Of a stretch of 64,000 nucleotides of DNA, positions 12,464-59,892 are shown piece by piece; position 1 is the stretch's first letter; every line of letters begins with the position of its first letter. A program made the position numbers and the translations under genes. The DNA is taken from positions 51,203 through 115,202 of the forward strand of contig JAFYNL010000022.1 in the NCBI GenBank assembly GCA_017548075.1, read 5' to 3'. This stretch comes from Bacteroidaceae bacterium. GTDB lineage: Bacteria > Bacteroidota > Bacteroidia > Bacteroidales > Bacteroidaceae. The notes beneath the pieces were generated by a model. It did no database searches and was not told the DNA's origin. It saw only the letters and a program-made list of their open reading frames with translations.

Positions 12464-12551
12464 TTGCAAACTTCACCTGTGAAAATGGCCAACTTCACAC
12501 GTGACGTTTCGCAACTTCACGAGAGATCTTTGACAACTTCACGAGAGAGAA
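12464..12551. repeat. 22-bp-period repeat array A (4 units)
   Basis: Units begin at 12466 (GCAAACTTCAC), 12488 (GCCAACTTCAC), 12511 (GCAACTTCAC) and 12532 (GACAACTTCAC), spaced 22, 23 and 21 bp. It lies upstream of GH127, between a promoter and a terminator-like hairpin. It is the most diverged of the seven arrays; only the second unit keeps the CACGTGACG core. Confidence 0.65.
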
Positions 12552-12591
12552 AAAAACTCCACCCGCTAAACGTTAACTAATTTGAAAAAAT

Positions 12592-12623
12592 GCAGCGGCT
12601 CTGTTGGGTGGCTGCGTTTTTTT
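12592..12623 (+). terminator. Terminator-like hairpin before the GH127 promoter
   Basis: GCAGC (12592-12596) pairs with GCTGC (12611-12615), followed by CG and a run of eight T (12617-12624). The stem is short, but the T tract is strong. It overlaps the GH127 promoter region. Confidence 0.4.
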
Positions 12624-12634
12624 TCCTATCTTTG
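12603..12634 (+). promoter_or_regulatory. Promoter of the GH127 gene
   Basis: TATCTTTG at 12627-12634 matches TAnnTTTG, with GTTG (3 of 4 bases of TTTG) at 12603-12606, 20 bp upstream. The predicted leader before the ATG at 12660 is about 20 nt. Confidence 0.55.
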
Positions 12635-12659
12635 TAGCGCAAAATAGTATTATTGTCCT

Positions 12660-15632
12660 ATGAAAAAGATTGCTTTTCTATGTGTTGCTCTTTTTGCTGT
12701 GGGCCTTGGCGCAAGGGCTGCGGGCGAGATAAGGCAGGTGCCGTTTACCGATGTGCAGGTGAAGGACCAGTTCTGGAAACAACGCCTCGATGTGATGCGA
12801 AACACGACCATCCGCTATGCCTTCCAGAAGTGTACGGACGCCGGTCAGATTCGCAACTTCGAGTATGCTGGCAAGATTGTGAGCGGCGAGGCTCAGGTGG
12901 GCGACCTGACCTTCCAGTCGGGCAATCCATACGACGATGCGGAGGTGTATAAGGTGCTGGAGGGCGCTTCGTATGTGCTTACTACTCAGGCAAATGCAAG
13001 TCTGGAGGAGTATTGCGACGGCGTTATCGACCTCATCTGCTCGGCTCAGGAACCTGATGGCTACATCCAGACGAATTTCACCATCCATAACCCTCTGCAT
13101 CCGTGGTACAACGGGGAGAAGTGGACGAGCGACTGGAACCTCTCGCACGAGACGTTCAATGTGGCGGAACTCATCGAGGCTGCGATTGCCTACTATCAGG
13201 CGACGGGCAAGGACAAGCTGCTGAACTGCGCCATTAAGGCTGCGGACAATATGCTCGACTACTTCAACGAGGACGGCATCAAGATGGCTCCCGGGCACGC
13301 TGTGGTGGAGATGGCTCTCGTCCGTCTCTACGAACTGACCAGAAACGAGCGCTACCTGCAGGGCTGCAAGTTCTTCCTGGACTGCCGAGGCATCCGCAAG
13401 TTCGATCCTACAAGCGGCGACCAGCGCGTGAACGGCAAGTACTGGCAAGACCATCTGCCTGCCATAGAACAAAGGACTGCCGAGGGGCATGCGGTCCGTG
13501 CTCTCTACTTCTACAGCGGCATGGCGGACTGGGTGCGCTACTCGGGCGACCAGGCTTACGAGACGGCTGTGACGGCAATCTGGGACAACATCGCAAGCAA
13601 GAAGTGCTACATTACGGGTGGCTTTGGGGCTCGCGACAACAACGAGGCTTTCGGCGAGGACTACGAGTTGCCCAACGCTTCGGCCTATTGCGAGACTTGC
13701 GCTTCGGTGGCAGCCAGCTTCTTCAATCTGCGCATGTTCCGCCTCCATGGCGATGGCAAATATGTGGATATGCTCGAGCGCGCGTTATATAATACGGTAT
13801 TGGACGGCTACGGCATTGCGGGCAAGACGTTCTACTATCCCAATCGTTTGGCTTCGACGGCAAGAGGCGATGCCCGCCCGGAGTGGTTCGGCACAAGTTG
13901 CTGCCCCACGAACCTCTGCCGACTCATCCCTTCGGTGCCCGGCTACATCTATGCCACAGACGACGATGCGCTCTATTGGAACCTCTTTGTGGCAAGCACG
14001 GCAACGGCAAAAGTGGGTGATACATCGTTCGGCATAACTATCACTGGCTCATATCCTTATAAAGGGGAGATGAAGTTAACGTTTAACTCCGTAGAAGGCA
14101 ATCCGAGCGGCAAGAGCCTGAAGGTTCGCATTCCTGGTTGGGCAGTAAACAAACCTGTGGAGAGCGACCTCTATTCTTATACGAACCCGACGACTACGCC
14201 TGTCGTCATCAAACTGAATGGCGAGGAGGTGAGCTATACTGTTGAGGACGGATATGCCGTCTTGCAAAAGGATTGGGCAGAGGGCGATTATGTGGAAATC
14301 TCGCTTCCGATGGACATCCATCAGGTTGTTTCGAACCCGAATTTGAAGACAAATGCAGGGCTCTGTTCCTACGAGCGCGGACCGATTGTCTATTGTGCCG
14401 AGGGCGTGGATAATAGTGGCAAGCTGGACAACCTCTTCATTCCGGAAGGGGCTACAGGAACGAATTCTACTGCTCCTTCGCCCATCTCGTCGCTCTTCAA
14501 AGGCGGTATTCAGCAACTTCGCATGAACGGCAAGGTTTGCACTCAGAATGGCACGGAAGTGGAGACGGCAGACAGGGTGGTGCGTCTGATTCCTTACTTT
14601 GCAAGAGCCAATCGTGCCGCTTCGCCCATGATGGTCTGGATTCCTACGGATGCCTCGAAGATGGAGCAACCCATCGACTTCATCGACGAAGTGAAGATTT
14701 GCAACAGCGCAAGCGAGCAGGCTCACAATCTGCAAGGCGAGAACATGCGAACAGGCTCGGATTTGGGATGGAGAGACGCTTACGGAGGCTGGATTAGCTA
14801 CGTCATGAAGGTTGACTCGGAGCGTCCTACAGACCTCGTCCTGAAGCTGTGGGGCAGCGATGGAGGCAATCGCAAGTTCGACATCTATTGCGACGGAACG
14901 GTCTTCTCCTACGAACACGTCGATAACTTCTCGCCCAACGAGTACTACTACATGCGGCATCCCATTCCCTTCGACCTCACGAAAGACAAGGAGAGGGTGA
15001 CGATTAAAATGAAGGCAATTGACGGCGACAATAATGTGGGCGGCCTGTTTGGCGTCTATACCGCGCTCTCGGAAGACGTTCCGGAAGGCTCTGTGACAGT
15101 CGATTATATGTGGACCACGAAGGCTGCTTCTCGCTCGAGCCATCGCTATACAAGCAACGGCGGCAACGGCACTTTCCGCAATAGGACTTGGCTCGACGGT
15201 TCGGGAACAACGGGGCAGGCTTGGACAATGAAGGTGGACAAGACGCATCGCAACTACCTGATGCTTCTGTATTGGGGCGACGAGGGCGATGTGCGCAACT
15301 TCGACATCATGTGCGACGATGTGTATGTGGCCAGCGAAAGCCTTTGCCATAACGACCCGGGGCGTTTCATGATGCGCTGCTATCCGATTCCCGAAGAGGG
15401 AACAAGCGGCAAGGAAAGTGTCCGCATCCACCTCACTTCACCCACTGGAACAAAGACTGGCGGCATCTTCTACGCCTATATGCTCTCGCTAAAAGACGAC
15501 GGAACGGGAATGGAAAACGTTAACGTTAACCTTAACGTCGACAGGGGCGTTTATAATCTTCTTGGGCAGCAGTTGGCAGAGCCGCAGTCGGGCATTAACA
15601 TCGTGAATGGCAAAAAGATGGCGTTGCGTTGA
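12660..15632 (+). CDS. Secreted GH127 beta-L-arabinofuranosidase-type enzyme with duplicated C-terminal domain
   Basis: A 990-residue secreted enzyme (signal peptide ~1-21) with a GH127 (DUF1680) catalytic region at ~25-640. The expected active-site set is visible: Glu329 (NNEAF, likely acid/base), Glu345 and Cys347 (YCETC), and the Cys414-Cys415 pair (GTSCCP) that would hold zinc and supply the cysteine nucleophile. GH127 enzymes remove beta-L-arabinofuranose; a few act on other rare sugars. Residues ~695-965 contain two related beta-domains, shown by the parallel stretches KLWGSDGGNRKFDIYCD and LLYWGDEGDVRNFDIMCD. The end (VYNLLGQQ...NGKKMALR) resembles a T9SS sorting tail. It has its own promoter and is convergent with the galactose unit. 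Confidence 0.88.
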   Translation: MKKIAFLCVALFAVGLGARAAGEIRQVPFTDVQVKDQFWKQRLDVMRNTTIRYAFQKCTDAGQIRNFEYAGKIVSGEAQVGDLTFQSGNPYDDAEVYKVLEGASYVLTTQANASLEEYCDGVIDLICSAQEPDGYIQTNFTIHNPLHPWYNGEKWTSDWNLSHETFNVAELIEAAIAYYQATGKDKLLNCAIKAADNMLDYFNEDGIKMAPGHAVVEMALVRLYELTRNERYLQGCKFFLDCRGIRKFDPTSGDQRVNGKYWQDHLPAIEQRTAEGHAVRALYFYSGMADWVRYSGDQAYETAVTAIWDNIASKKCYITGGFGARDNNEAFGEDYELPNASAYCETCASVAASFFNLRMFRLHGDGKYVDMLERALYNTVLDGYGIAGKTFYYPNRLASTARGDARPEWFGTSCCPTNLCRLIPSVPGYIYATDDDALYWNLFVASTATAKVGDTSFGITITGSYPYKGEMKLTFNSVEGNPSGKSLKVRIPGWAVNKPVESDLYSYTNPTTTPVVIKLNGEEVSYTVEDGYAVLQKDWAEGDYVEISLPMDIHQVVSNPNLKTNAGLCSYERGPIVYCAEGVDNSGKLDNLFIPEGATGTNSTAPSPISSLFKGGIQQLRMNGKVCTQNGTEVETADRVVRLIPYFARANRAASPMMVWIPTDASKMEQPIDFIDEVKICNSASEQAHNLQGENMRTGSDLGWRDAYGGWISYVMKVDSERPTDLVLKLWGSDGGNRKFDIYCDGTVFSYEHVDNFSPNEYYYMRHPIPFDLTKDKERVTIKMKAIDGDNNVGGLFGVYTALSEDVPEGSVTVDYMWTTKAASRSSHRYTSNGGNGTFRNRTWLDGSGTTGQAWTMKVDKTHRNYLMLLYWGDEGDVRNFDIMCDDVYVASESLCHNDPGRFMMRCYPIPEEGTSGKESVRIHLTSPTGTKTGGIFYAYMLSLKDDGTGMENVNVNLNVDRGVYNLLGQQLAEPQSGINIVNGKKMALR

Positions 15633-15657
15633 GAAGATAGGAACGGAAGAAAATAAG

Positions 15658-15688
15658 AAAGGGCGTTACCGATTGGCAGCGCCCTTTT
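15658..15688. terminator. Bidirectional terminator between GH127 and the SGLT-type gene
   Basis: AAAGGGCG (15658-15665) pairs perfectly with CGCCCTTT (15680-15687), followed by TTCTTG on the plus strand and by CTTATTTTC on the minus strand. It separates two convergent genes. Confidence 0.75.
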
Positions 15689-15710
15689 CTTGTCTTATCT
15701 CCGCAGAACT

Positions 15711-17393
15711 TTACCAGAAGTAGATGTAGAATGCTACGGTGATGGCGAGGATGATGATGGTGTGGAATACATCCCAGCCATTCCAGCTGGCACGAGTTGC
15801 TGCAATTTGCTCGGGAGTGGATGTGCCGAAGACCAGTCCCTGAATTTTCTCCTTGCTTGGAGCCTCGGTGAAGAGGGAAACAAGAATTACAACCAGGCAG
15901 CAGACAACAAGCATCACGCCGCAGAAGAACAACCAGTTGAAGTCGTAGAACACAGCTTTGAACCAGCTATCAGCGGCATCGGGCGTGTTACTATAGTACA
16001 CCTTTGCACCAAGACGAGTCAAGCCAATGATAATGCCTGAGAGCAAGCCCCACTGACCGCCCTTGGCAGAAGCACGCTTCCACGTAACACCCAAGAGGAA
16101 TGCTGCTGCAATACCAGGAGCAAGCACGCTCTGGACGTCCTGCAGATAGTTGTAGAGCACGTTGCCTACGCTCCTCATAATGGGAATCCAAAGGATGCCG
16201 AGAATCACGATGACAACAGTTGCCGTTTGTCCGATACGAACCAAACTCTTCTCAGACGTTTGTGGCTTCAGTCGCTTCCAGAAGTCAATGGTGAAGAGCA
16301 TAGCGGAACTGTTGAACAGAGATGCAAGTGAAGACATCAAAGCTGCAAGAATACCGCAAACCACAAGACCCTTCACGCCTGCAGGCAGAATCTTAGCCAC
16401 GAGGGTAGGGAAGGCGGCATCGGCATTCGGAGTACCGTCTTCAAGTAGAGGCAGGAAGCCACCATACTTCTGATGAAGGGCAAAGGCAATCATGCCTGGA
16501 ATGAGGAATAGGAACACGGGCAACAGCTTCAGATAAGCTCCGAAAATGGTACCACGACGGCTTTCCTTCTCGTTCTTGCCAGACAAGACACGCTGCACGA
16601 TGTACTGGTCGGTACACCAATACCAGAAGCCGATGACTGCAGAGCCAACGAGTGCTCCCAGCCAAGGATACTGCGGGTCGCTATTCGAACGCATCAGGTG
16701 AATCATGGTGCCTGTGGCGCCTTCGTAGTTGGGCTTTACGTTGCAAAGCTGGAGCATCTGGTCCCAGCTGCCTAAGGCTTTCATTCCCAATACGAGGATG
16801 ATGAGTGAGCCAAGCAGCAGGATAGGTGTCTGCAGCACAGAGGTGTAGAGCACAGACTTCATACCTCCAAGAATGGTGTAGAGCGCTGTGATGAGCACAA
16901 GTCCGATGGCTGCAATCCAGAAGAAGTCGATGCCCCAAAGTTCTTTAATGCCAAACACTTGCTGGAACACAAGTCCGCCAGCATAAACCGTTACGGCTAC
17001 TTTCGTCAGCACGTAAGAAATCAGAGAAATGACGCTCAGGATGGTGCGGCTTTGTGTGTTGTAACGACGCTCGAGGAACTCGGGCATGGTGTAAACCATA
17101 GAACGAGAATAGAAGGGCACGAATACCCAGCCGAGAATAAGAATCATCCATCCTTGAATCTCCCAATGTGCCATTGCCATACCCGATGAAGCACCTGCTC
17201 CTGCAAGTCCGATAAGATGCTCTGAACCGATGTTCGAGGCAAAGATACTTGCACCAATGGCTATCCATGTTGCGTCCTTGCCGCCAAGAAAATAGTCTGC
17301 CGAGTTGTCGTTCTTTTGAGAAACGACCCAAAGTACGATGCCGATTAGCGCACAGCAGAAGACGCCAATGACAATCCAGTCTAATAATGCCAT
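15711..17393 (-). CDS. SGLT-type sodium:sugar symporter (SSS family)
   Basis: A 560-residue inner-membrane protein with about 14 hydrophobic helices. It is like vSGLT: an early DYFLGGKDATW segment, then IGASIFASNIGSEHLIGLAG, the helix typical of sodium/glucose or sodium/galactose transporters, and later YWCTDQYIVQRVLSGKNEKE. With galK and galM upstream, galactose is the likeliest substrate. It is last in the minus-strand galactose unit but is separated from galK by a hairpin with a T tract, so it may be expressed at a lower level than the other genes. No separate promoter was found in the 72-bp gap. Glucose, xylose or another sugar is possible. Confidence 0.85.
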   Translation of the reverse strand: MALLDWIVIGVFCCALIGIVLWVVSQKNDNSADYFLGGKDATWIAIGASIFASNIGSEHLIGLAGAGASSGMAMAHWEIQGWMILILGWVFVPFYSRSMVYTMPEFLERRYNTQSRTILSVISLISYVLTKVAVTVYAGGLVFQQVFGIKELWGIDFFWIAAIGLVLITALYTILGGMKSVLYTSVLQTPILLLGSLIILVLGMKALGSWDQMLQLCNVKPNYEGATGTMIHLMRSNSDPQYPWLGALVGSAVIGFWYWCTDQYIVQRVLSGKNEKESRRGTIFGAYLKLLPVFLFLIPGMIAFALHQKYGGFLPLLEDGTPNADAAFPTLVAKILPAGVKGLVVCGILAALMSSLASLFNSSAMLFTIDFWKRLKPQTSEKSLVRIGQTATVVIVILGILWIPIMRSVGNVLYNYLQDVQSVLAPGIAAAFLLGVTWKRASAKGGQWGLLSGIIIGLTRLGAKVYYSNTPDAADSWFKAVFYDFNWLFFCGVMLVVCCLVVILVSLFTEAPSKEKIQGLVFGTSTPEQIAATRASWNGWDVFHTIIILAITVAFYIYFW

Positions 17394-17406
17394 ATTAATT
17401 TACTAT

Positions 17407-17443
17407 TAAAAAGGAGCCCTGAACGTTGGATGTCCAGGACTCC
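17407..17443 (-). terminator. Intra-operon terminator or attenuator after galK
   Basis: On the minus strand GGAGTCCTG pairs with CAGGGCTCC (one mismatch; plus-strand 17413-17443), followed by TTTTTAATAG. It lies between the galK stop and the symporter start. Partial readthrough would set symporter level relative to galK. Confidence 0.6.
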
Positions 17444-17465
17444 ATAAGTAAGTAAATGCGAGTGA

Positions 17466-18626: not shown

Positions 18627-18659
18627 TTTTCTAAGTTTAAGAGATTAAAGTTCAAGTGT

Positions 18660-19949: not shown

Positions 19950-19999
19950 AATGATTTGAATTAAGTTATTTTGAATTTAGTTGTTTTGAATTCTTGTTC

Positions 20000-21082: not shown

Positions 21083-21118
21083 AGGCGTATAATGTAGTTA
21101 AAGTTGCATTTTTCCTTG

Positions 21119-21149
21119 CAAATATAGCAAAAAAAACAATTGCTTCAAA
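21119..21149 (-). promoter_or_regulatory. Promoter of the galM-permease-galK unit
   Basis: On the minus strand TTTG (21149-21146), 19 bp, then TATATTTG (21126-21119): a full Bacteroidetes consensus promoter. The predicted start (~21112) lies 30 bp before the galM ATG. Confidence 0.7.
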
Positions 21150-21248
21150 GGAAAATGTAGAAATCTTACATCCTTGCCTATTAAAAGATGTTAAAGAGCA
21201 TAAGCAGGAAGGATTTGACGCCACAATTCTTTGTGCTTAAAAACATAT

Positions 21249-21349
21249 GCAGTTACGATGCCAAACGTAACACGTTACGATTGCAATCATAACACGTTAA
21301 CTTTGCCAACGTAACACGTTAAGTTTACAAACGACACACGTGATGTTTT
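21249..21349. repeat. 22-bp-period repeat array B (4-5 units)
   Basis: Unit anchors are at 21260 (GCCAAACG), 21283 (GCAATCAT), 21305 (GCCAACGT) and 21327 (ACAAACGA), spaced 23, 22 and 22 bp; each is followed by an AACACGTTA or CACACGTGA core. The array starts about 10 bp after the folC stop and ends 100 bp before the galM promoter. No gene lies in this gap (21083-21360). Confidence 0.75.
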
Positions 21350-21360
21350 AAGATGAGGCC

Positions 21361-22605
21361 TTAGTATCCGAGATACGTGAGCAGATCCGCTACAATAAAG
21401 GTGCTACCTCCTATATAAATAATGTCTTTGCTTGAAGCTTCCTTTTTTGCTGCGAGAAAAGCCGTCTTAACATCGTTAAATACCTTGCCATGAAGGTTGT
21501 GAGTTATGGCTCGCTTACAAACTTCTTCTGCTGGCATTGCGCGTTGCACAGAGGCTTGGGTGAAATAATAAACCGCATCCTTCGGCATCATGGAAAGTAC
21601 TGCGTCAACATCTTTATCGCTTACCATTCCAAAAACAAAATGCAATCGTTGATGGGGCAGGGTAGCAAGGTGACGGAAGATGTACTCAAGTCCGCCTTTG
21701 TTGTGGGCCGTGTCGCAAATGGTAAGGGGCTTCTTACTGAGTATTTGCCATCGTCCCATTAAGCCAGTCATCGTGCAGACTTCCTTGAAACCTCGTTTCA
21801 CGGCTTTGTCGCTAATCTCAATTCCTCGCTCTCGAAGCAGACGAACAGATGTGAGGATGGTCTGCTGGTTCTTCTCTTGGCAAAGGCCTTGAAGAGCGGC
21901 TCCCTCCAAACCTTTCCTTGGGAAGGCTTCGTCTTCAGCGAAGGTGATGGGTGCTCCTACTTCTTTTGCTTTGTTCTGGAATACGGCTTTGACTTCTGGA
22001 TTGACGTTCTCGCCAATGCAGACAGGAATGCCCGACTTGATGATGCCTGCCTTCTCCGAGGCTATCTTTGGGAGCGTGTCACCAAGGAATTGAACGTGAT
22101 CGAAGCTGATGTTTGTGATGACGGAAAGTACGGGCTGGATGATGTTTGTGCAGTCGAGTCTGCCTCCCAAGCCAACTTCAATAACTGCGAAGTCAACCTT
22201 CTGCTCCTCGAAGTACTTGAAAGCGAGGGCTGTAGCAAGTTCGAAGAAAGAGAATCCCGTTTCCCATGGTTCTTTTCTAACTGCTTGAACGAACTCAATG
22301 ACGCGCTTTTTGCTTATCTTTTTGCCGTTGACCCGAATCCTTTCGCGGAAGTCAACGAGATGGGGACTTGTATAAAGACCTACACGATAGCCTTGTGACT
22401 GCAGGATGGCTGCAAGGGTGTGACAGACAGAGCCTTTACCATTCGTGCCCCCTACATGAATAGTACGATAGTTGCGATGCGGATGGCCGAAGTACTCATC
22501 AAGAGCAAGCGTGCCTCCGAGCCCCTCTTTATACGCCGCTGCCCCCACATTCTGAAACATAGGGGCAGAGTCGAAAAGGTATTGTACGGCTTGTTCGTAG
22601 GTCAT
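21361..22605 (-). CDS. folC: Folylpolyglutamate synthase / dihydrofolate synthase
   Basis: A 414-residue Mur-ligase-family enzyme with an ATP-binding loop GGTNGKGS (52-59), the segment [17 protein letters not shown] and [12 protein letters not shown], typical of FolC. It adds glutamate to dihydropteroate and folates. Its start overlaps the dnaJ stop by 4 bp, so it is translationally coupled to the chaperone genes and is last in the run 26976 to 21361. Repeat array B begins just beyond its stop codon. Confidence 0.93.
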
Positions 22606-23789: not shown

Positions 23790-23801
23790 AATCCAATCCT
23801 C

Positions 23802-24368: not shown

Positions 24369-24427
24369 TTTGATAGGGTTTTGTTTCCGCTTCTTTCTCT
24401 ACAAGAAACGTGCCAATCGAGGACTTG

Positions 24428-26976
<2,549 letters not shown>

Positions 26977-27055: not shown

Positions 27056-27541
27056 ATGCGAGAATACAAGATTGAGGCTCTGATGCGCATCTTTGAGATG
27101 GCAGAATTGAGCAAAGCAGACCAAGAGTTGGTAGAGGCAGCCAAGCGCGCAACTGCTGGAAGTTATGCACCTTATAGCAAGTTTCGAGTAGGGGCAGCCG
27201 TTCGTTTGCAGGATGGAACAATCGTTTGTGGTGCAAATCAGGAGAATGCAGCCTTTCCATCAGGACTTTGTGCCGAGCGAACAGCTCTTTTTGCAGCAAA
27301 TGCCCAGTATCCTGACCAGCCCGTCGTAGCTTTGGCCATCGCAGCTCAGAAAGGCCGTCAGTACCTCGCTCAGCCCATCTCTCCTTGCGGAGCTTGCAGG
27401 CAAGTTATTTCAGGAGTGGAGGACCGTTACGGACAACCCATTCGCATCCTGCTTTACGGCACAGATGGTGTCCTTGTTTCCGACGGCATTAACCCCTTGC
27501 TTCCCCTTCGCTTTGTTGACGACAATATGAGGCTAGGGTAA
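27056..27541 (+). CDS. cdd: Cytidine deaminase
   Basis: A 161-residue zinc enzyme of the cytidine/deoxycytidylate deaminase fold. The catalytic CAE motif is at 72-74 (SGLCAERTA) and the zinc-binding PCGAC at 110-114. It deaminates (deoxy)cytidine to (deoxy)uridine in pyrimidine salvage. The start at 27056 (MREYKIEAL) was chosen because the promoter lies between it and the upstream in-frame ATG. The gene stands alone, convergent with porE, and repeat array C begins 2 bp after its stop. Confidence 0.92.
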   Translation: MREYKIEALMRIFEMAELSKADQELVEAAKRATAGSYAPYSKFRVGAAVRLQDGTIVCGANQENAAFPSGLCAERTALFAANAQYPDQPVVALAIAAQKGRQYLAQPISPCGACRQVISGVEDRYGQPIRILLYGTDGVLVSDGINPLLPLRFVDDNMRLG

Positions 27542-27542
27542 A

Positions 27543-27613
27543 TTGTAAACTTCACGTGGATAAAAAGCAAACTTCACGTGTGATGTTTGCCAACGACACA
27601 CGTGAAGTTTTTG
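27543..27613. repeat. 22-bp-period repeat array C (3 units), forming a 13-bp hairpin
   Basis: Units begin GTAAACTTCACGTGG (27545), GCAAACTTCACGTGTGATG (27567) and GCCAACGACACACGTGAAG (27589), spaced 22 bp. The second and third pair: AAACTTCACGTGT (27569-27581) is the exact reverse complement of ACACGTGAAGTTT (27598-27610). T runs follow on both strands, so it could terminate both convergent genes (cdd and porE). Confidence 0.75.
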
Positions 27614-32036: not shown

Positions 32037-32891
32037 ATGAAGCCACTCATCTCTTTCATCATCACTTATCATAATGAGCCGGAAGCCCTGCTGAAAGCTT
32101 GTTTGGAGAGTGTTAGGGCACTTCGTCTTGCTGGGAATGAAGCGGAAATTATTGTGGTTGATGATGGGAGCGAAGTACGGCCAGAAGGGGATTTTCTTTA
32201 TGTTCATCAAGAGCAGTCTGGTCTTTCTATGGCTCGAAATACTGGCCTCAGTCATGCTCAAGGCCAATATATTCAGTTTGTGGATGCAGACGATTGTCTG
32301 ATTCCTCCTGTTTATGAAGCAGTTCTCGAGCATTTGAGGAAGGGTTTGCCCGACCTTTTGCTCTTCAAGATTAGCAATATAAATAATGTATACGAAATGG
32401 GGGCTGCTCCTCGAAAAAGTTCTGGAGTTGATTTCCTTCAGAACCACAATCTTCGAGCTTCGGCTTGTGCCAATGTCTTTCGTCGAGAGATTTTGGGCGA
32501 TTTACGCTTCCAACCTGGTCTACTTCATGAGGATGAACTCTTCACGCCTCAGCTTTTCTTGAAGGCAAAAACGCTTCTCGAACTTGATGCGAAAGCCTAC
32601 TTCTATCGTCAACATTCGGGCACGATTACAAGCTCGATGTCTTCTGAGAAAATACAAAAAAGGCTGAATGATATCCAATTCATACTCAGTGAATTAAAGT
32701 CTTTAGATGAACCTGTACTTGAACGCAGGATAAGGCAGTTGACTGTCGATTATCTTCAGAAGACTTGGACGCTTACTCATAGCCTTCGAGAGCTTCGAAA
32801 ACGCATGAAGGAACTCCGCAAAGAAGGCTTCCTTCCATTGCCCGTTCGCAGCTATTCTTTGCGATATTTTCTGGCGAGCCTAGTTGCGTAG
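32037..32891 (+). CDS. GT2-family glycosyltransferase
   Basis: A 284-residue GT-A fold glycosyltransferase with N-terminal SFIITYHNEPEALLKACLES, the nucleotide-sugar site VVDDGS (40-45), ARNTGLSHAQG (66-76) and the metal-binding DAD in FVDADD (81-86). It transfers a sugar from a nucleotide donor, probably in surface polysaccharide or protein glycosylation; donor and acceptor are unknown. It stands alone, not in a polysaccharide cluster. No membrane helix is evident. Repeat array D begins 7 bp after its stop. Confidence 0.85.
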   Translation: MKPLISFIITYHNEPEALLKACLESVRALRLAGNEAEIIVVDDGSEVRPEGDFLYVHQEQSGLSMARNTGLSHAQGQYIQFVDADDCLIPPVYEAVLEHLRKGLPDLLLFKISNINNVYEMGAAPRKSSGVDFLQNHNLRASACANVFRREILGDLRFQPGLLHEDELFTPQLFLKAKTLLELDAKAYFYRQHSGTITSSMSSEKIQKRLNDIQFILSELKSLDEPVLERRIRQLTVDYLQKTWTLTHSLRELRKRMKELRKEGFLPLPVRSYSLRYFLASLVA

Positions 32892-32897
32892 TCAAAC

Positions 32898-32990
32898 AAC
32901 CCCAGTTACGTTGGCAAAGTTAACGTGTTACGTTGGCGATTTTAACCTGTTACGTTTGCAATCTTAACGTGTGAAGTTACAAAACTTCAC
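32898..32990. repeat. 22-bp-period repeat array D (4 units)
   Basis: Anchors are at 32914 (GCAAAGTTAAC), 32936 (GCGATTTTAAC), 32958 (GCAATCTTAAC) and 32980, each 22 bp apart. The left end AACCCCAGTTACGTTG is nearly identical to array F. At the right end GTGAAGTT (32971-32978) and AACTTCAC (32983-32990) form an 8-bp hairpin. It lies between GT2 and the lepA promoter. Confidence 0.75.
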
Positions 32991-33038
32991 TAGCCTAGTT
33001 CATGAATTAAATTAAGCGACAAAAATAAAGGTCTTTAT

Positions 33039-39210: not shown

Positions 39211-40419
39211 TCACTTGACTATCATTTTCCTTCCCTTCCAAATATAAATACCGGTTTCCGTAGGTCTGGCGTTTAACTTCACACCGGAAAGAGTGTACCA
39301 CGATTCATCGTCAATCGTCAATTGTCCGTTGTCGATAGTCTTCATTCCATCAACAATGATGTAGAACGTCTCGGTCATGGTGTTACTCATACGTCCTTCC
39401 GAGTCAACAACTGCCCAAGTCATGGTGTGTTCGCCTCTATCCATTAAGTCGATAACAGATATTTCCATCATACCTATGCTACCACTCAGGGGTGCAGAAT
39501 ATATGTGTTCAGCATCATTGTCGAACCAATATACGCATCGTGCTAGCTCTGCCGGGACTTTCTGCGCCGTAATAACGAAGTAGCGCGTCACAGGACTGCT
39601 CCACACATTGAGGTCGTCTTTAGCACGAAGTGTGATAGTATGAACGCCAGCTTCAAGATTTTCGAGCACCAGTTCGCCAAAATCGTCCACACTTCTGCGT
39701 TCTGCAGTATTACCGTCGAACCAGTATTCGCATTGAACAATGGCTGTAGCCGAAGGGCTTGCAACGGGAGCTTTTACGAAATAACGAGTGACAGGATTGC
39801 TCCATACATTGAGGTCGTCCTTTATGCGAACCGTTATGGTGTGCGGACCAGCAAGCAGATTGTCCAAAGGAATGATTGCCCCGTCGGATACGGCTTGACG
39901 TTCATCTATATTACCATCTATCCAATACTCGCACAGAGCAATGGCTGTGGCCGAAGGGCTTGCAACGGGAGCCTTCACAAAGTAACGAGTGATGGGTGCA
40001 CTCCACACATTGAGGTCGTCCTTTATGCGAACCGTTATGGTGTGCGGACCAGCAAGCAGATTTTCCATTGGAATTATAGCTCCGTCGGATACTGTTTGAC
40101 GTTCATCCACCTTGCCGTCTATCCAATACTCGCATTGAGCAATGGCTGTAGCCGAAGGGCCTGCAACGGGAGCCTTCACGAAGTATCGGGTAACGGGTGC
40201 ACTCCACACTCCCTCGCTGTCGCAGATGCGAACGGTCAAGGTATGCGGCCCCACATTCTGCTCAGTCAAGTCAATCTGTGCTCCCGCAGCAATCGTAGCG
40301 CTACCTGCCACATTGCCGTCAATCCAGTATTCCTGTCGGTCGACGGTTTTCTGTGCAAGTGCAGACGAGCATATCGCTAACACGGCCGCAACAGATAAAT
40401 ATCTAATTCTTACAGTCAT
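39211..40419 (-). CDS. Secreted 67-residue tandem-repeat protein with T9SS-like tail
   Basis: A 402-residue secreted protein (signal peptide ~1-22). Residues ~28-345 form five repeats of ~67 residues with the pattern EYWIDGN, then AGPHTITVRIKDDLNVWS and PVTRYFVKAP. At the DNA level the unit is exactly 201 bp over four copies (starts 39721, 39922, 40123, 40324) and 195 bp to the fifth (39526). After the linker TIDNGQLTIDDESW comes a tail (YTLSGVKL...GRKMIVK) similar to T9SS sorting tails. It is probably a surface protein with a binding role. It follows the beta-helix gene by 22 bp on the same strand, so the two may be one transcript. No known family could be assigned. Confidence 0.7.
   Translation of the reverse strand: MTVRIRYLSVAAVLAICSSALAQKTVDRQEYWIDGNVAGSATIAAGAQIDLTEQNVGPHTLTVRICDSEGVWSAPVTRYFVKAPVAGPSATAIAQCEYWIDGKVDERQTVSDGAIIPMENLLAGPHTITVRIKDDLNVWSAPITRYFVKAPVASPSATAIALCEYWIDGNIDERQAVSDGAIIPLDNLLAGPHTITVRIKDDLNVWSNPVTRYFVKAPVASPSATAIVQCEYWFDGNTAERRSVDDFGELVLENLEAGVHTITLRAKDDLNVWSSPVTRYFVITAQKVPAELARCVYWFDNDAEHIYSAPLSGSIGMMEISVIDLMDRGEHTMTWAVVDSEGRMSNTMTETFYIIVDGMKTIDNGQLTIDDESWYTLSGVKLNARPTETGIYIWKGRKMIVK
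39526..40419. repeat. Tandem 201-bp coding repeats
   Basis: The phrase CCAATACTCG / CCAGTATTCG recurs at 39721, 39922, 40123 and 40324, each 201 bp apart, plus a weaker copy at 39526. The central copies are close to identical over more than 100 bp, suggesting recent duplication or gene conversion. Confidence 0.85.
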
Positions 40420-41661: not shown

Positions 41662-41742
41662 ATCCTCTTTTCATGAGATAAAGGCTCGTCAGTCTGTACG
41701 AAAAAGGTTTGTACTCCGAAAGAATGTGTCTAAGGTAATCTG

Positions 41743-41838
41743 AAAACTTAACACGTGAAGTTTGCCTACGACACACGTTAACTTGCCCGACTTAACACGT
41801 TATGTTTGCAATTTACCTGTGTGTCGTTTGCGAACGAT
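41743..41838. repeat. 22-bp-period repeat array E (4 units)
   Basis: Anchors are at 41764 (GCCTACGACAC), 41785 (GCCCGACTTAAC), 41808 (GCAATTTACC) and 41830 (GCGAACG), spaced 21, 23 and 22 bp, preceded by a first AACTTAACACGTGAAG unit. It lies just beyond the valS terminator. Confidence 0.75.
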
Positions 41839-45805: not shown

Positions 45806-45808
45806 CTC

Positions 45809-46552: not shown

Positions 46553-46563
46553 CGAGGCTGTAT

Positions 46564-47295: not shown

Positions 47296-47305
47296 GATAA
47301 ATGTT

Positions 47306-49731: not shown

Positions 49732-49733
49732 TT

Positions 49734-50357: not shown

Positions 50358-50360
50358 CTC

Positions 50361-52862: not shown

Positions 52863-52901
52863 GTGTGTGAATACCTTATTTATATACGCGAAATATGGGC
52901 G

Positions 52902-52909
52902 CAAAATTA
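52902..52909 (-). promoter_or_regulatory. Putative -7 element of ftsK
   Basis: The minus strand reads TAATTTTG, 40 bp before the ATG at 52862. The alternative ATG at 52904 lies inside it. No TTTG is present at the -33 position. Confidence 0.5.
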
Positions 52910-53201
52910 CGAAAAAAATGGCAATTAACGAAGAAGAAGAGGGAATAATTTGAGCAAATTAACTTAATTTGAATTTCCGAGTTTGTGAGTTTAATTTGTG
53001 TAATGAATGAGAAATGTAAAGATTTTGGATGGGTTGTCAGATGTGATTTGTTTAGCAGAGTTCCCTCGAACTTTAGGCCGAGTTGACTTTCGAAGCTCTT
53101 AAAGTGGACTAATAGAATGTGTTTTCTAAGTGCTTTTCGAGGGTTGTGCTAACTAGCTAATACAGAGATAGATACAAATGCATCTTGTTAAGCTCCAAAA
53201 T
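52910..53201. other. Intergenic region upstream of ftsK without a credible gene
   Basis: Between the ftsK promoter and array F there are only very short open frames (27 and 31 codons from 53003 and 53007), and no terminator or RNA fold was recognised. It may hold regulatory sites for ftsK or mfd that cannot be named. Confidence 0.5.
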
Positions 53202-53321
53202 AACCCCAGTTACGTTGCCAAAGTTAACGTGTTACGTTTGCAATTTTAACGTGTTAAGTTGGTCGATTTAACGTGTTAAGTTTGCCAACTTCACAGGTTA
53301 AGTTTTGAGAGTTCACACACC
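53202..53321. repeat. 22-bp-period repeat array F (5 units)
   Basis: Anchors are at 53217 (GCCAAAGTTAAC), 53240 (GCAATTTTAAC), 53262 (GTCGATTTAAC), 53284 (GCCAACTTCAC) and about 53306 (GAGAGTTCACAC), spaced 23, 22, 22 and 22 bp. The left end is almost the same as array D. This array lies in the gap between divergent ftsK and mfd, unlike the others, which mostly lie at gene ends. Confidence 0.75.
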
Positions 53322-53459
53322 TAATTTCTCCTCGCTCCATTTCGCGTTTGAATTGTTAACTCGCTTTGTTCGTTATTTTGTCGTGTTTTTGGCACAAATT
53401 TAACTCGCTAAACGAGAAAAATAGAAATTAAGAAATTATGAATTTCGAATTATTTGTTG

Positions 53460-53467
53460 TATCTTTG
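53460..53467 (+). promoter_or_regulatory. Putative -7 element of mfd
   Basis: TATCTTTG lies 36 bp before the mfd ATG. AATTATGAATTTCGAATTA, a short repeat word, precedes it. The -33 element is not clear. Confidence 0.5.
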
Positions 53468-53503
53468 CAGACGGTTATAGACATTTCGCATTAGGCGATA
53501 AAA

Positions 53504-56500: not shown

Positions 56501-56896
56501 ATGCTTCTCTATCGCGAACTTGATGGAATGGAAAGGGACGAAGATGTGGAACGCTTCAAGCAAAGACTGATAGACCGTTTTGGTCCTCTTCCAAGAGAAG
56601 CGGAAGACCTCTTAAAAGTCGTCACTCTTCGTCAGCTTGGAAAGCATTTCGGTTGTGAACGTGTCGTGCTAAAAGCTGGTCATGCACGCCTCTTCTTTGG
56701 TCCCGACGATGATAATCCTTTCTATGCTGGCCGCATCTTCGGACAGATATTGGACTTCGCTACGGCCAACGCTTATCGTTGTCATTTCAAACTCGACAAA
56801 GGTAAGAGCCTCCTCATAGATGATGTGAATACTATCGGCGAAGCAGTTGAACTCTTGAAACAAATAAATAATAGGAAACTATGCTCAAGCATCTGA
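53504..56896 (+). CDS. mfd: Transcription-repair coupling factor
   Basis: A 1130-residue protein with UvrB-like N-terminal domains, a CarD-like RNA-polymerase-interacting domain (~435-520, FEVGDYVVHIDYGVGKFGG), helicase motifs (Walker A GDVGFGKTEVA near 590; DEEQ in LIIDEEQKFGV near 690; TATPIPRTLQF) and the C-terminal TRCF domain. It removes stalled RNA polymerase and recruits UvrA. A short segment at ~320-333 (QIPNPYSLIQ) is coded by CCCTAATCCC-type repeats and may be an insertion in a linker. The end overlaps recN by 16 bp. Confidence 0.96.
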   Translation: MEIQKLQSLYARHPGVKAFAAELQKGSQKTIQLAGLQGSSAALVFASLAEKAPEVLGSPYVFVLDDEEEAGYFYHDLTRMLGDQQVLFFPSSFRRAIKFGQRNAGQEILRTEVLSRLSSGSLPLFVVTHPQALSELVVTKQKLSEQTLSLKVGERVDIMFVQETLLSFGFNRTDYVYEPGQFAVRGSIIDVYSFSHELPYRIDFFGDEVDSIRTFEVHSQLSRDRQESITIVPEMDGKNLSRESFLSFLPQNTLLILKDLVFLCDIVEQSYKDGFSQSAITVQQEEASVDLSADSLLVKPEDFRKQVLDFRRIELKSTTSQIPNPYSLIQFHTHSQPVFHKNFDLLISAFQKLQDEGTELYILADSQKQTDRLESIFHDKETGIQFTPVDHALHAGFSDDDLHLAFFTDHQIFDRYHKYNLRSEKAMGGKVALTLKELQQFEVGDYVVHIDYGVGKFGGLVRMQNGDQMQEVIKIIYSGDDTVYVSIHSLHKVSKYKGREGEPPRISHLGTGAWERMKERTKKKIKDIARDLILLYSRRREEKGFSFSHDSFMQHELEASFLYEDTPDQLKATQDVKADMERQRPMDRLVCGDVGFGKTEVAIRAAFKACVDNKQVAVLVPTTVLAYQHFHTFTSRLKDFPVKIEYLTRARTPGQTKQILEGLKTGSVNIIIGTHKLIGKSVRFKDLGLLIIDEEQKFGVSTKEKLRQLKTNVDTLTLTATPIPRTLQFSLMGARDLSVIQTPPPNRYPIQTQLCQFNAEVIAEAIEFEMSRSGQVFFVNNRISQLPELAELVRKHVPDARVAIAHGQMHPEELEKIMVDFMNYDYDVLISTTIIESGLDIPNANTIIINGAHNFGLSDLHQMRGRVGRSNKKAFCYLLAPPLSALNIDARRRLQAIENFSDLGSGIHIAMQDLDIRGAGNLLGAEQSGFIADLGYETYQKILSQAVTELRNEEFHELYAEEVREGNVVESTDVVDDCQLDSNLPMFFSEEYVPTSSERMLLYRELDGMERDEDVERFKQRLIDRFGPLPREAEDLLKVVTLRQLGKHFGCERVVLKAGHARLFFGPDDDNPFYAGRIFGQILDFATANAYRCHFKLDKGKSLLIDDVNTIGEAVELLKQINNRKLCSSI

Positions 56897-58557
56897 CCAT
56901 CAATAATTACGTTCTTATCGAGTCTCTCGACATAGACTTGGAACCTGGCTTCTCGGTTCTGACTGGCGAGACGGGTGCAGGAAAGTCCATCATCCTTGGT
57001 GCTTTAAGCCTGCTTATGGGGCAGCGAGCAGACTCGGGAAGTATTATGCCTGGTTCTGCGAAGTGTACCGTCGAGGGCATTTTCAATATCGAAGGCTATG
57101 ATATGCAAGGTCTCTTCGAGGAGAACGAGCTGGATTACGAGCCTCAGGAATGTATTCTTCGAAGGGAAGTGGCTGCAAATGGCAAGAGTCGCGCCTTTGT
57201 GAATGACACTCCTGTTAATGTGACAGTCCTTCGTCAGATTGCCGTTCGCCTCTTGGATATCCACTCGCAACATAGCAATCTGTTGCTCGAAAATCCTGCC
57301 TTCCAACTTGGTATTGTTGATACTGTTGCAGACCATCAGGACTTACTCAATCAGTATCGCGAACTTTATACTCGCATAGTGGAGGCTCGACGCAAGCTTC
57401 GTGAGTTGGAGGAGAACTTCGCAAAGCGGCAAAGCGACGAGGATTATCTGCGCTTTCAGCTTGAGCAACTTGATGAGTTCAAACCTCAAGAGGGTGAAGA
57501 TGAAGAGTTAAAGCAGTTACAGAGTGCTCTTTCTCATGCCGAAGACATTAAGGTCGCGCTTTCAGGAATCGATTCTTTACTGAATGGTAATGACAACGAT
57601 GAAGGAGTTGGAGCCATTGATGCGCTCCGTCGTTCCACGCAAACTATGCAACAGATTGCTAACGTCTATCCTGCCATCGAAGACTATATGAGTCGGCTTG
57701 AAAGTGTTGTTATTGAGGTTCGAGACATTGCTGGCGACCTTGAAAGCCTTTCCGAAGATGTGGAATACAATCCTGCTCGTTTGCAACAAGTAACAGAAAG
57801 GCTCGACAACCTCTATTCTCTCGAGCAGAAGCATCATGTTAGTTCGGCAGAAGAACTCATTGCTTTGGCAGAAGATATTCGTTCTCAGCTCGATTTACTT
57901 GCTGATTCTGAGGACATTATAAAGGAACTTCAAAAGCAGATAGAAGTTGATACAGAGCAGGCAAAGAAGCTTGCAGAGAAGCTTTCTGCAGGTCGCACAA
58001 AGGCAGCAAAGCAAGTTGAGAAGTTGGTTAAAGAGGCTCTTGTTCAAATGGACATTCCTGCTGCCATCTTTAATGCTGAAGTCACTCGGTCCGAATTGCA
58101 GTCTTCTGGACAAGATATCGTAACCTTCTTATTCTCCGGTAATAAGAGTATGGCGCCCAGACCTTTAGCAGATGTGGCAAGTGGAGGTGAAATGTCGAGA
58201 GTAATGCTTGCTCTTAAGGCTTTGACGAGCAAGCAAACACATCTTCCAACTATCATCTTCGACGAGATTGATACAGGTGTGAGCGGTAAAGTAGCAAGTT
58301 CTATGGCGCAGATTATGGCGAAGATGAGCAAAGGTGCAAGTCAGCAAGTCCTTGCCATCACCCACCTTCCACAGATTGCTGCAAAAGGAGATGCGCATTA
58401 TCTCGTATATAAAGAAGACGTGGGAAACCGCACTCTAACTCGCATCAAACAGCTCGACTCGGATGGACGCATTACAGAACTTGCTCATATGCTTAGCGGA
58501 AGTGTGGTTACGGATGCTGCGAGGGAGAATGCTAAACAGTTGTTGAAGGACAAATGA
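56881..58557 (+). CDS. recN: DNA repair protein RecN
   Basis: A 558-residue SMC-like protein with Walker A GETGAGKS (29-36), two long coiled coils (~155-205 and ~320-385) and a C-terminal ABC signature ASGGEMSRVMLALK with IIFDEIDTGVSG. It organises broken DNA ends for recombination. It overlaps mfd by 16 bp and tilS by 4 bp, so a DNA-repair pair is coupled to a tRNA-modification gene. Confidence 0.95.
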   Translation: MLKHLTINNYVLIESLDIDLEPGFSVLTGETGAGKSIILGALSLLMGQRADSGSIMPGSAKCTVEGIFNIEGYDMQGLFEENELDYEPQECILRREVAANGKSRAFVNDTPVNVTVLRQIAVRLLDIHSQHSNLLLENPAFQLGIVDTVADHQDLLNQYRELYTRIVEARRKLRELEENFAKRQSDEDYLRFQLEQLDEFKPQEGEDEELKQLQSALSHAEDIKVALSGIDSLLNGNDNDEGVGAIDALRRSTQTMQQIANVYPAIEDYMSRLESVVIEVRDIAGDLESLSEDVEYNPARLQQVTERLDNLYSLEQKHHVSSAEELIALAEDIRSQLDLLADSEDIIKELQKQIEVDTEQAKKLAEKLSAGRTKAAKQVEKLVKEALVQMDIPAAIFNAEVTRSELQSSGQDIVTFLFSGNKSMAPRPLADVASGGEMSRVMLALKALTSKQTHLPTIIFDEIDTGVSGKVASSMAQIMAKMSKGASQQVLAITHLPQIAAKGDAHYLVYKEDVGNRTLTRIKQLDSDGRITELAHMLSGSVVTDAARENAKQLLKDK

Positions 58558-59798
58558 TTGATAAAGTACGTACATACATAGAACGTGAGATTGGGCTTGA
58601 AGACGAGTCGCTTGTTCTTGTAGCACTTAGCGGAGGAGCTGATTCCACAGCACTTCTGCTCATGATGAAGGAACTTGGTTACAAGATTGAGGCTTTGCAT
58701 TGTAACTTTCATTTGAGGGATGAAGAGTCGAATCGCGACCAAACTTTTGTGGAGGAACTTTGCAAGAAACAAGATGTGCCTTTGTCTGTTCGTCATTTCA
58801 ATACGGAAGAAGTTGCAAAAGAGCGTGGCATAAGTATTGAGATGGCTGCTCGAGACCTTCGTTACGACTGGTTCCGAGAGGAGATGAAAGCAAAGAAAGC
58901 AACTTGTATTGCAGTTGCTCATCATCGGGACGACCAAGCAGAGACGCTCCTTCTCAACCTTCTTCGTGGAACTGGATTGCGTGGTTTGGCTGGAATGAGC
59001 CCGAAGCATGATGGCATTATCCGTCCTTTTCTATGTTTGAGCCGTGAAGAGATTTTGAGATATCTCGAGTCTCGAGGGCAATCTTTCGTTACCGATAGTA
59101 CAAATTTAGAACGAATTGTGCAAAGAAATCGCATTCGTCTCGACCTGATTCCTTTGCTTCAGAGCATCAATCCATCTGCAGTCGAGCATCTTTGTCTTGC
59201 GCAGGATAATGTGCGAGAAAGCATACCTTATTATATTAAGGGAGTTGAAGCGGCTTTCGACGAGTTGGGTATTACGGCAACGTCTTTCCCTCTTAGTGTT
59301 CTTACTTCCCGTACCTTGCTTCATGAATGGCTTTCGGGCAAGGGATTTAATCAGGCTCAAGAGGAAGAGTTGATGAGAGCCACAGAGAGTAATGTCGGCA
59401 AGATGTGGCATTCGAAAAGTCATACAATCCTGCTTGATAGAGAGGCTTTGATTTTGGCTCCTTTGTCGAATGAATTAAAAGTCCCGCAAATCAAGCAGGA
59501 GATAGTGTCTTCTATTGAGGAGAAAGGGCCGAATGTTGCCTACTTTGATGCAGATTTGATGACTGCTCCGATTGAGGTCCGGCTTGTTCGTGAAGGCGAT
59601 TCCTTTGTGCCTTTCGGCATGAAGGGTAGGAAGTTGGTAAGTGATTTCCTGACTGACCGCAAGATAAATCGCCTAGAGAAAGCAGAATCGTTCGTCGCTA
59701 CTTGTGGCGAAGACATCATTTGGCTAATAGGTCATCGGAGCGATAACCGTTATAGGGTTACCGAAGGAACAAAGCGAATTCTCAAACTGTCCGTGTGA
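58554..59798 (+). CDS. tilS: tRNA(Ile)-lysidine synthetase
   Basis: A 414-residue enzyme with the PP-loop SGGADS (26-31) and the block LHCNFHLRDEESNRDQTFVE, then a C-terminal substrate-binding domain. It changes the wobble C of tRNA-Ile(CAU) to lysidine so that AUA is read as Ile. It is last in the mfd-recN-tilS run. Its last codons (TCC GTG TGA) lie inside repeat array G, so the repeat supplies the stop codon. Confidence 0.93.
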   Translation: MIDKVRTYIEREIGLEDESLVLVALSGGADSTALLLMMKELGYKIEALHCNFHLRDEESNRDQTFVEELCKKQDVPLSVRHFNTEEVAKERGISIEMAARDLRYDWFREEMKAKKATCIAVAHHRDDQAETLLLNLLRGTGLRGLAGMSPKHDGIIRPFLCLSREEILRYLESRGQSFVTDSTNLERIVQRNRIRLDLIPLLQSINPSAVEHLCLAQDNVRESIPYYIKGVEAAFDELGITATSFPLSVLTSRTLLHEWLSGKGFNQAQEEELMRATESNVGKMWHSKSHTILLDREALILAPLSNELKVPQIKQEIVSSIEEKGPNVAYFDADLMTAPIEVRLVREGDSFVPFGMKGRKLVSDFLTDRKINRLEKAESFVATCGEDIIWLIGHRSDNRYRVTEGTKRILKLSV

Positions 59799-59892
59799 CG
59801 TTTGCAAACATCACCAGTTAACTTTACAAACATAACACGTTAAGTTTGCAATCTTAACGTGTGTCGTTGGCCAACTTAACGTGTTACGTTTC
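59788..59892. repeat. 22-bp-period repeat array G (5 units), overlapping the tilS stop
   Basis: Anchors are at 59804 (GCAAACATCACC), 59826 (ACAAACATAACACG), 59848 (GCAATCTTAACG) and 59870 (GCCAACTTAACG), each exactly 22 bp apart, with a first partial unit CCGTGTGACGTTT inside the end of tilS. It fills the gap between convergent tilS and the fasciclin gene; no ordinary terminator is seen there. Confidence 0.75.

Follow-up and report, generated by a model that had tools for sequence, protein, structure and literature searches.

RESULTS

Arrays in the window

The window, a stretch of 64,000 nucleotides, holds seven arrays of 22-bp units, designated A to G. These are listed with their profile scores, neighboring genes, and syntenic arrays in related genomes (G011, G035, G051, G070, and the genus members G026 and G034 are named below); the genome under study, that of a gut bacterium, is referred to as G000 and its assembly is 88% complete.

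Array A, 12462-12549: 4 units, 73.9 bits; divergent gap, 110 bp before a start at 12660.
Array B, 21235-21344: 5 units with AC linkers, 105.1 bits.
Neighbor of array B, 21361-22605, minus strand: gene with Mur-ligase domains (Pfam), its stop 16 bp from the right end of the array.
Array C, 27541-27606: 3 units, 51.9 bits; convergent gap, its start falling on the stop codon of a gene of the cytidine/deoxycytidylate deaminase type (Pfam); syntenic array in G070.
Array D, 32888-32997: 5 units, 97.0 bits; upstream of lepA, with its start overlapping a glycosyltransferase gene's stop codon; G070, G051, and G035 each have a syntenic array, and in G026 none was detected.
Array E, 41738-41825: 4 units, 71.2 bits; 81 bp behind the stop of a minus-strand valyl-tRNA-synthetase-type gene (Pfam).
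Array F, 53170-53389 with doubtful outer units included (117.2 bits): clear part 53187-53318, about 6 units, left end CCCCA-GTTACG; divergent gap between ftsK-type and mfd-type genes (Pfam); syntenic arrays in G070 and G011.
Array G, 59778-59909: 6 units, 114.6 bits, with an internal polarity switch from AC to GT; fills the 107-bp convergent gap between a PP-loop-family gene and a fasciclin-domain gene (Pfam); syntenic array in G070.

A 22-column profile, for which 464 kb of genomic sequence (the 64-kb window plus 400 kb) served as training data, was used to detect the arrays; one unit carries about 18 bits of information in it. The profile search recovered from the window precisely the seven arrays of the original prediction, at scores of 51.9 to 117 bits, and the same set was already obtained at a threshold of 15 bits. 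With Tandem Repeats Finder alone, four of the seven (B, D, F, and G) were reported with a period of 22. The family proved to be larger than first described. At scores of at least 20 bits, 59 arrays were found in the 464 kb and none in three first-order Markov simulations, while 858 kb, or 32% of this genome, yielded 108 arrays. The density there was one per 7.9 kb, and in the window one per 9.1 kb. Genome-wide pattern scans gave 139 and 226 matches, and the reversed patterns gave none. The distinction from CRISPR was upheld, as the units follow one another directly every 22 bp; no unique spacers were found separating identical repeats, and Cas1 had no match in the 88% complete assembly.

Anatomy of the unit

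The 22-bp period was confirmed, with 403 of the 415 steps between units being exactly 22 bp. Ten steps were 44 bp, corresponding to one weak unit skipped, and single steps of 21 bp and 23 bp were observed. Arrays usually had 3 to 7 units and a median length of 110 bp. The two palindromes described for the unit are not independent, since any array that has one dyad and repeats every 22 bp must have another dyad at a distance of 11 bp. Both arms use one common 8-mer vocabulary. Excess complementarity was observed for two outer arm pairs (z of 3.7 and 5.5), and this excess was also present in unit-to-unit and other-dyad comparisons. The inner four arm pairs showed no covariation (z of −0.7, −2.8, −0.3, and −0.6; 286 units), and an explanation by hairpin covariation was rejected on this ground.

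Inverted boundaries mark the ends of many arrays. The boundary statistics were taken from the 85 of 108 arrays that had at least four units and every step at 22 bp; 101 of their 170 ends could be anchored, and the linkers, read inward, were CA in 67, TA in 33, CG in 1, and TG in 0. Between array polarity and the strand of the genes no significant link was observed (30 to 21; p = 0.26).

An 11-bp harmonic in either W/S composition or roll, the latter calculated with dinucleotide values, was absent from 46 arrays of other genomes, and phased bending or gyrase-like wrapping through such a harmonic was therefore rejected. The absence also counts against wrapping by composition. Some of these 46 arrays were barely palindromic, the lowest tenth scoring 0.43 or less against a column-shuffled median of 0.50.

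Placement relative to genes

Gene calls were made with a simple ORF caller, from which the simulated nulls were also drawn, and an array was taken as intergenic when its center lay within 45 bp of a gap (60 bp in some analyses). By this measure 104 of the 108 arrays lay between predicted genes and 4 lay inside them. Equal occurrence inside genes, named beforehand as evidence against the arrays, was thus not observed. An unsupervised lag scan of 464 kb placed 53 period-22 segments in gaps and 0 in genes. When 794 kb, with the window excluded, was scanned under a different scoring, one segment fell inside a gene and 53 were intergenic.

In codirectional gaps the array lay at a median of 14 bp behind the stop codon. 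Convergent gaps were occupied in 34 of 76 cases (19/40 and 15/36), and divergent gaps held 19 of the 108 arrays. Of the arrays proposed to begin near a stop codon, C starts at its stop and D over its stop. Array B instead approaches a stop codon, that of the minus-strand gene, with its right end. Arrays A and F sit in divergent gaps and hence not behind a gene end.

Even spacing

The arrays are evenly spaced along the chromosome. In the first set (54 intervals) the mean was 7454 bp with a coefficient of variation (CV) of 0.40, and no interval was shorter than 3.4 kb compared to about 16-18 expected. The second set, from stretches outside the profile training, comprised 44 intervals with a mean of 7503 bp and a CV of 0.42, and 5 intervals were shorter than 3.4 kb compared to about 14-15 expected. 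When positions were drawn only from boundary-type gaps, the null CV was 0.80-0.90, and equal regularity was reached in 0 of 3000 simulations for either set. Seven other members of the genus, when pooled, gave a mean of 7473 bp and a CV of 0.54 against a null of 0.82 (equal regularity in 15 of 2000 simulations). The cause of the even spacing could differ, for example uptake or replication.

Relatives and distribution

Where a syntenic gap holds an array in G000, the relatives carried one in 11 of 12 comparisons, which represent 8 distinct gaps with that of array D counted in four genomes. Where the gap lacks an array in G000, only 3 of 118 relatives' gaps carried one (Fisher p of about 1.5e-12). 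Arrays in other genomes were detected with the G000 profile and the lag scan, by which diverged arrays are missed. At the conserved positions the unit sequence has changed between related species. Arrays resembled each other more within than between genomes, clearly for G000 and G011 and barely for G070, the difference not being measurable for G051 and G026; detection by the G000 profile favors G000-like arrays in this comparison. In the other genus members the median distance from the stop was 19 bp (39 codirectional or convergent arrays).

The exact unit sequence is restricted to the genus. Leyella stercorea has its own 22-bp family, unrelated in sequence and similar in placement (median of 16 bp from the stop for 7 codirectional or convergent arrays); its stretches were picked for pattern matches, and the lag-scan arrays in them include more than one sequence family. 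A sample of 20 stretches (348 kb) was taken from genera and families elsewhere in the order; with one stretch of less than 3 kb left out of the scan, a single lag-22 intergenic segment was found compared to two each at lags 23 and 33. A further 20 stretches (346 kb) represented the remaining orders sampled in the phylum; with two of less than 3 kb left out, one lag-22 segment was found compared to three at lag 21, and 50 kb of Escherichia coli gave none. By the G000 profile, 0 of 80 named LepA neighborhoods held an array, the four nearest relatives included. The nearest named relatives by LepA are MAGs that bear the names Bacteroidaceae, Bacteroidales, or Paraprevotella, to which the original assignment to Prevotellaceae is a loose fit. 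The occurrence of arrays in all Bacteroidales, which a scan of LepA flanks had hinted at, was rejected given the rarity of period-22 arrays in other genera. Together with the LepA result, this rarity indicates that the function is not shared by the whole order. The short pattern matched 29 viral contigs, and none of the 29 held an array.

DISCUSSION

The observations on which the interpretation builds are the unit anatomy, strict period, a position mostly close behind stop codons, even spacing, places conserved between species with altered unit sequence, and absence of significant polarity relative to transcription. From these we infer, at a probability of roughly 0.4, a binding protein and a function: the arrays would be protein-binding platforms that punctuate the chromosome, perhaps as boundaries of supercoil domains. 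Each array would present double-stranded DNA on which half-sites alternate in orientation, with two in every 22 bp, and the distinct inverted boundary would often cap its ends. A putative sequence-specific protein, probably dimeric, would cover the array cooperatively, and the stable complex would stand between transcription units, where it may limit or absorb supercoiling. The outcome would be roughly one boundary per 7.5 kb. Several observations count against this model: both strands fold better than shuffled sequence, the arrays of other genomes lack an 11-bp harmonic and some are scarcely palindromic, two outer arm pairs have excess complementarity, and arrays are absent from the named LepA loci and rare in the other genera sampled.

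Punctuation of the chromosome is made probable by the even spacing and by the retention of the same places in relatives with altered sequence; the change of sequence at kept places also suggests that the binding specificity co-evolves with the arrays. Three readings had been offered originally. The DNA-level reading, protein binding, was strengthened by the inner arms without covariation, the polarity unlinked to strand, and the even spacing; the mobile family was weakened by the conservation of positions between species and the lack of a Y1 transposase match in G000, and the RNA-level 3' element was weakened as well. The proposed platforms resemble the iteron arrays of plasmid replication origins, in which tandem units some two helical turns long bind protein. 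Iterons are, however, direct repeats with one or few arrays per replicon, whereas the present arrays are palindromic and number in the hundreds.

It is unlikely that the arrays are a REP/BIME-like palindromic family, spread by a past transposase and tolerated at gene ends with no role at chromosome scale. They do share the traits of that class, being intergenic, palindromic, present in hundreds of copies, located at 3' ends, and genus restricted in sequence, and their inverted boundaries resemble terminal inverted repeats. The Y1 transposase family (PF01797) was matched in 53 of 101 genomes searched, including array-bearing G026 and G034, but not in the 88% complete assembly of G000, and a RAYT was rejected as the spreading agent despite the two positive genomes. 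REP-bearing genomes do not all keep a RAYT. The REP tags were not enriched in the 108 arrays: GTAG/CTAC occurred 9/13 times and CGTC/GACG 21/23 times, compared to about 46 expected for each under equal base use, a crude expectation for a patterned unit with 40% G+C. Conserved positions also argue against this reading, and even spacing would not be expected of tolerated insertions, barring target immunity.

RNA-level 3' elements, that is, tandem hairpins in 3' untranslated regions that end transcripts or block 3' decay in both directions, also seem a rather poor explanation. Their expected placement was observed behind stop codons and in convergent gaps, and both strands folded better than shuffled sequence (median z of −2.79 and −2.36; 40 arrays). 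The compensatory change expected of hairpins was nevertheless absent from the inner stem pairs, strand polarity was not significant, the 19 arrays in divergent gaps do not conform, and the even spacing is left unexplained. Predicted intrinsic terminators were equally or more frequent beside arrays, which gives no sign that arrays stand in for them, and no Rfam family reached its gathering score in a search of the window.

It is improbable that the arrays load gyrase at gene ends to clear positive supercoils there, as E. coli BIME-2 does. Gyrase wraps about 130-140 bp, which is near the median array length, and the 3'-end and convergent placement and an even spacing at the scale of supercoil domains would be consistent with such sites. 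The missing period-11 harmonic argues against them, as does the information content of the unit, a strict 22-bp code not being expected as a gyrase requirement.

Least probable is a self-recognition signal, such as DUS/USS-like DNA uptake or protection of own DNA, which would be consistent with the even spacing, lineage-specific sequence, gene-end placement, and array-free viral contigs, but would require about 110 bp per site, far more than known uptake signals, in a genus for which competence is not known, the ComEC-type homologue of G000 being uninformative since 10 of 14 control genomes also match.

No description of the arrays was found in searches of open-access full texts, in agreement with the original view that they are undescribed; the matching passages of PMC4679880 and PMC5771137 do not describe them. 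For REPs, roles in supercoiling, termination, and mRNA stability have been hypothesized (Di Nocera 2013, PMC3733652). REPs and BIMEs are likewise short palindromic intergenic units of high copy at gene 3' ends; the arrays differ in their strict 22-bp tandem period, even chromosomal spacing, lack of GTAG/CGTC enrichment and of a RAYT match in G000, and positions kept while unit sequences change. The PINSR of Prevotella intermedia is also lineage specific and intergenic; one strain has 177 copies and another 184, with about three quarters of sites common to both. It is, however, described as 188 bp long and lacking terminal inverted repeats, and section 3.4 of its description does not mention 22-bp units (PMC4755523). 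USS/DUS are dispersed and relatively even and form overlapping inverted pairs at gene ends (PMC7811141); each is one short motif, with about 1 kb to the next, whereas the arrays have 3-7 palindromic units each and lie about 7.5 kb apart. New here are the even spacing, syntenic retention, non-stem-like inner arms, polarity without a significant link to strand, inverted boundaries, and genus restriction.

The supercoil domains of bacterial chromosomes are thought to measure roughly 10 kb, and to our knowledge regularly spaced domain boundaries that are fixed and defined by sequence are unfamiliar. The arrays are candidates for such boundaries, regularly spaced and open to deletion, relocation, and testing. 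The retention of place and geometry while the code changes points to a co-evolving protein that should be recoverable, and L. stercorea DSM 18206 is a named strain with similarly placed arrays that is open to experiment. A chromosomal ruler, in which a fast-evolving DNA-binding protein on fixed arrays about 7.5 kb apart sets domain boundaries, with unrelated codes elsewhere in Bacteroidales such as that of L. stercorea, is a doubtful extension; if true, selection would keep place and 22-bp geometry and let the sequence code diverge from one species to the next.

Detection and structure of the arrays

A 22-column profile was used to detect the arrays, tandem runs of degenerate 22-bp units. Its seed was a consensus taken from the window, and its training set comprised the window together with another 400 kb of the source genome, G000. 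Within the window, the profile recovered all seven arrays of the original prediction, with no other match scoring at least 15 bits. At 20 bits or more, 59 arrays were found in these 464 kb (set 1) and none in three first-order Markov simulations. A genome-wide pattern scan gave 139 matches to AACACGTTAN{0,3}TTTGCNAA and 226 to TAACACGTTANNTTTGC across the whole G000 genome versus none for either reversed pattern. Together with a further 394 kb (set 2), which played no part in profile training, 108 arrays were counted in 858 kb, corresponding to 1.4% of the DNA, with a median length of 110 bp and with 403 of 415 steps between units at exactly 22 bp. From this density, ~335 arrays were extrapolated for the 2.66-Mb G000 assembly, which is 88% complete.

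In the hairpin-phased register, the unit comprises an 8-bp arm, a 4-bp centre (most commonly TGCA, TGCC, or GGCA), another 8-bp arm, and a 2-bp linker, most commonly AC or GT. In the 286 units of set 1, both arms shared one word list, led by AACTTAAC, AACGTAAC, AAGTTAAC, and ATCGTAAC. The second dyad in the unit follows from the first, since one dyad and a 22-bp period already give it. Linker identity was correlated between adjacent units of set 1 (z of 7.7 and 6.5), and AC and GT linkers were mixed within 25 of 104 arrays.

Array ends, analyzed for 85 arrays (170 ends), were unlike the array middle. A boundary linker was found at 101 ends, reading inward as CA (67), TA (33), or CG (1) and never as TG; the other 69 ends could not be anchored. 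The anchoring rule presupposed pyrimidine-purine linkers, but the CA-not-TG direction is independent of it. The sequence just outside the boundary linker was most often AACRACTG or AACRACCC, and GTAAC-type arms came first inside. Many arrays therefore have inverted, TIR-like ends.

Placement and spacing

The claim that the arrays are intergenic was upheld against predicted genes, just 4 of 108 lying inside them. In set 1, arrays were present in 19 of 40 gaps between convergent genes, 30 of 235 between codirectional genes, and 9 of 39 between divergent genes; the corresponding counts in set 2 were 15 of 36, 21 of 221, and 10 of 33. In codirectional gaps, the median distance was 14 bp to the upstream stop and 147 bp to the next start, the 3' end being the nearer neighbour for 46 of 51 arrays.

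The even spacing of the arrays is an addition to the original prediction. The mean interval was 7454 bp in set 1 (54 intervals; CV, 0.40; minimum, 3498 bp) and 7503 bp in set 2 (44 intervals; CV, 0.42; minimum, 2101 bp; 5 intervals below 3.4 kb). Random choice of gaps, weighted by type or restricted to boundary-type gaps, gave CVs of 0.80 to 0.90, and the observed CV was reached in 0 of 3000 simulations for either set. Seven other genus members, when pooled, gave a mean of 7473 bp and a CV of 0.54 versus 0.82 for the null (15 of 2000 simulations); a wider pool, to which no null was attached, gave 8330 bp and 0.56. Nine array-free intervals exceeded 11.8 kb; three were a single codirectional gene run and six a few such runs each.

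Conservation and distribution

Syntenic gaps of G000 were compared with 11 other genus members. Where G000 had an array, the relative also had one in 11 of 12 comparisons (8 distinct gaps), versus 3 of 118 where it had none (Fisher P of about 1.5e-12). The sole miss was the gap upstream of lepA in G026. Alignments showed altered arms between arrays in matching places, and on this sequence comparison the place of an array is kept between species and its code is not. Best 16-mer identity was 0.86 within G000 versus 0.74 to 0.79 to arrays of other genomes and 0.85 versus 0.68 to 0.71 for G011; G070 was barely more self-similar (0.77 versus 0.75 at best), and G051 and G026 had no measurable within-genome excess (0.76 to 0.77 both ways). 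At window positions 56880 to 56896, two genes overlap by 16 bp, and their G051 counterparts are 272 bp apart (L200, C2:43982-44254); this spacer contains an array and TATCTTTG, which we take to be a promoter-like motif. Array gain may have split an operon in G051, or array loss may have joined one in G000.

Besides G000, 9 of the 72 other genus genomes sampled contained the exact sequence, and none of 47 genomes from the order's other families did. The family sample had 2 positives among 201 genomes (G000 and G051), and the phylum sample of 118 had a single one, G000 itself. Of 11 other genus members sampled, 10 had at least one intergenic segment of period 22 in an unsupervised lag scan (15 to 40 bp), the exception being G065; 22 was the sole lag in nine of the ten, G052 having one additional segment each at lags 20, 30, and 40. 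Among 80 named LepA loci (1.4 Mb), lag 22 was the commonest intergenic lag, with 16 segments versus at most 5 at others (8 versus at most 5 when rescored another way). By contrast, the G000 profile at 20 bits detected no array in these 80, which include the four nearest LepA relatives (L061 to L064), and a further 39 kb from the L061 genome had no lag-22 segment. Such arrays were rare in random stretches from outside the genus: lag 22 gave a single gap segment in 348 kb from the order's other genera and families, a single one in 346 kb from other orders, and none in 50 kb of Escherichia coli. Other lags were equally frequent in these stretches.

Other 22-bp families were also observed. Leyella stercorea has its own family, with 82 matches to TCGATGCGGANNTCTGCG at up to 1 mismatch (control, 0). 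In Leyella stretches selected for containing matches, the lag-22 arrays in codirectional or convergent gaps, 7 in number, had a median distance of 16 bp to a stop codon. Intergenic 22-bp arrays that are strongly palindromic and unrelated in sequence occur in Bacteroides caecigallinarum, Bacteroides sp. 214, and Prevotella sp. UBA4330 (L067, L071, L091, and L230). Alongside the main arrays, G051 has a second, AT-rich palindromic family (ATACATACATGTA; L198:10079-10146 and L201:13077-13145) and G011 a different 22-bp family around GGTTAACC (L206:17766-17851 and L207:13109-13190).

Interpretation

A role as double-stranded DNA is favoured because inner arm pairs showed no covariation (286 units of set 1), array polarity relative to gene strand was not significant (30 to 21; P = 0.26), and the even spacing is a chromosome-scale property. 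An RNA role is kept open by the predicted folding of the arrays, which on either strand exceeds that of their shuffled counterparts (median z of −2.79 and −2.36; 40 arrays of 80 to 160 bp), and by excess complementarity in two outer arm pairs (z of 3.7 and 5.5; 286 units); the excess in these columns also appeared in unit-to-unit comparison.

The arrays resemble REP/BIME elements in placement and palindromes but differ in their even chromosomal spacing and in having no enrichment of GTAG/CGTC tags in G000. A Y1 transposase match was absent from G000 (88% complete) and present in array-bearing G026 and G034. CRISPR identity was rejected, the units being contiguous at 22 bp and Cas1 being unmatched in the 88% complete G000.

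One ComEC-type match was observed in the whole G000 genome. A 201-bp tandem repeat (2.5 copies, 86% match) lies at window positions 39709 to 40209, inside the span of a minus-strand ORF at 39211 to 40419. The nearest printed case found in the lineage is a 188-bp intergenic repeat, PINSR, with about 180 copies in Prevotella intermedia (PMC4755523). No published account of the 22-bp arrays was found in the open-access literature searched.

The array finding is real, positionally kept between species, and unusual. Returning to the DNA-level role, we tentatively propose, at a probability of roughly 0.4, that the arrays are putative protein-bound punctuation of the chromosome. Base composition lends no support to wrapping by phased bending. 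Protein binding is the firmer half of the punctuation proposal and a supercoil or domain role the softer.
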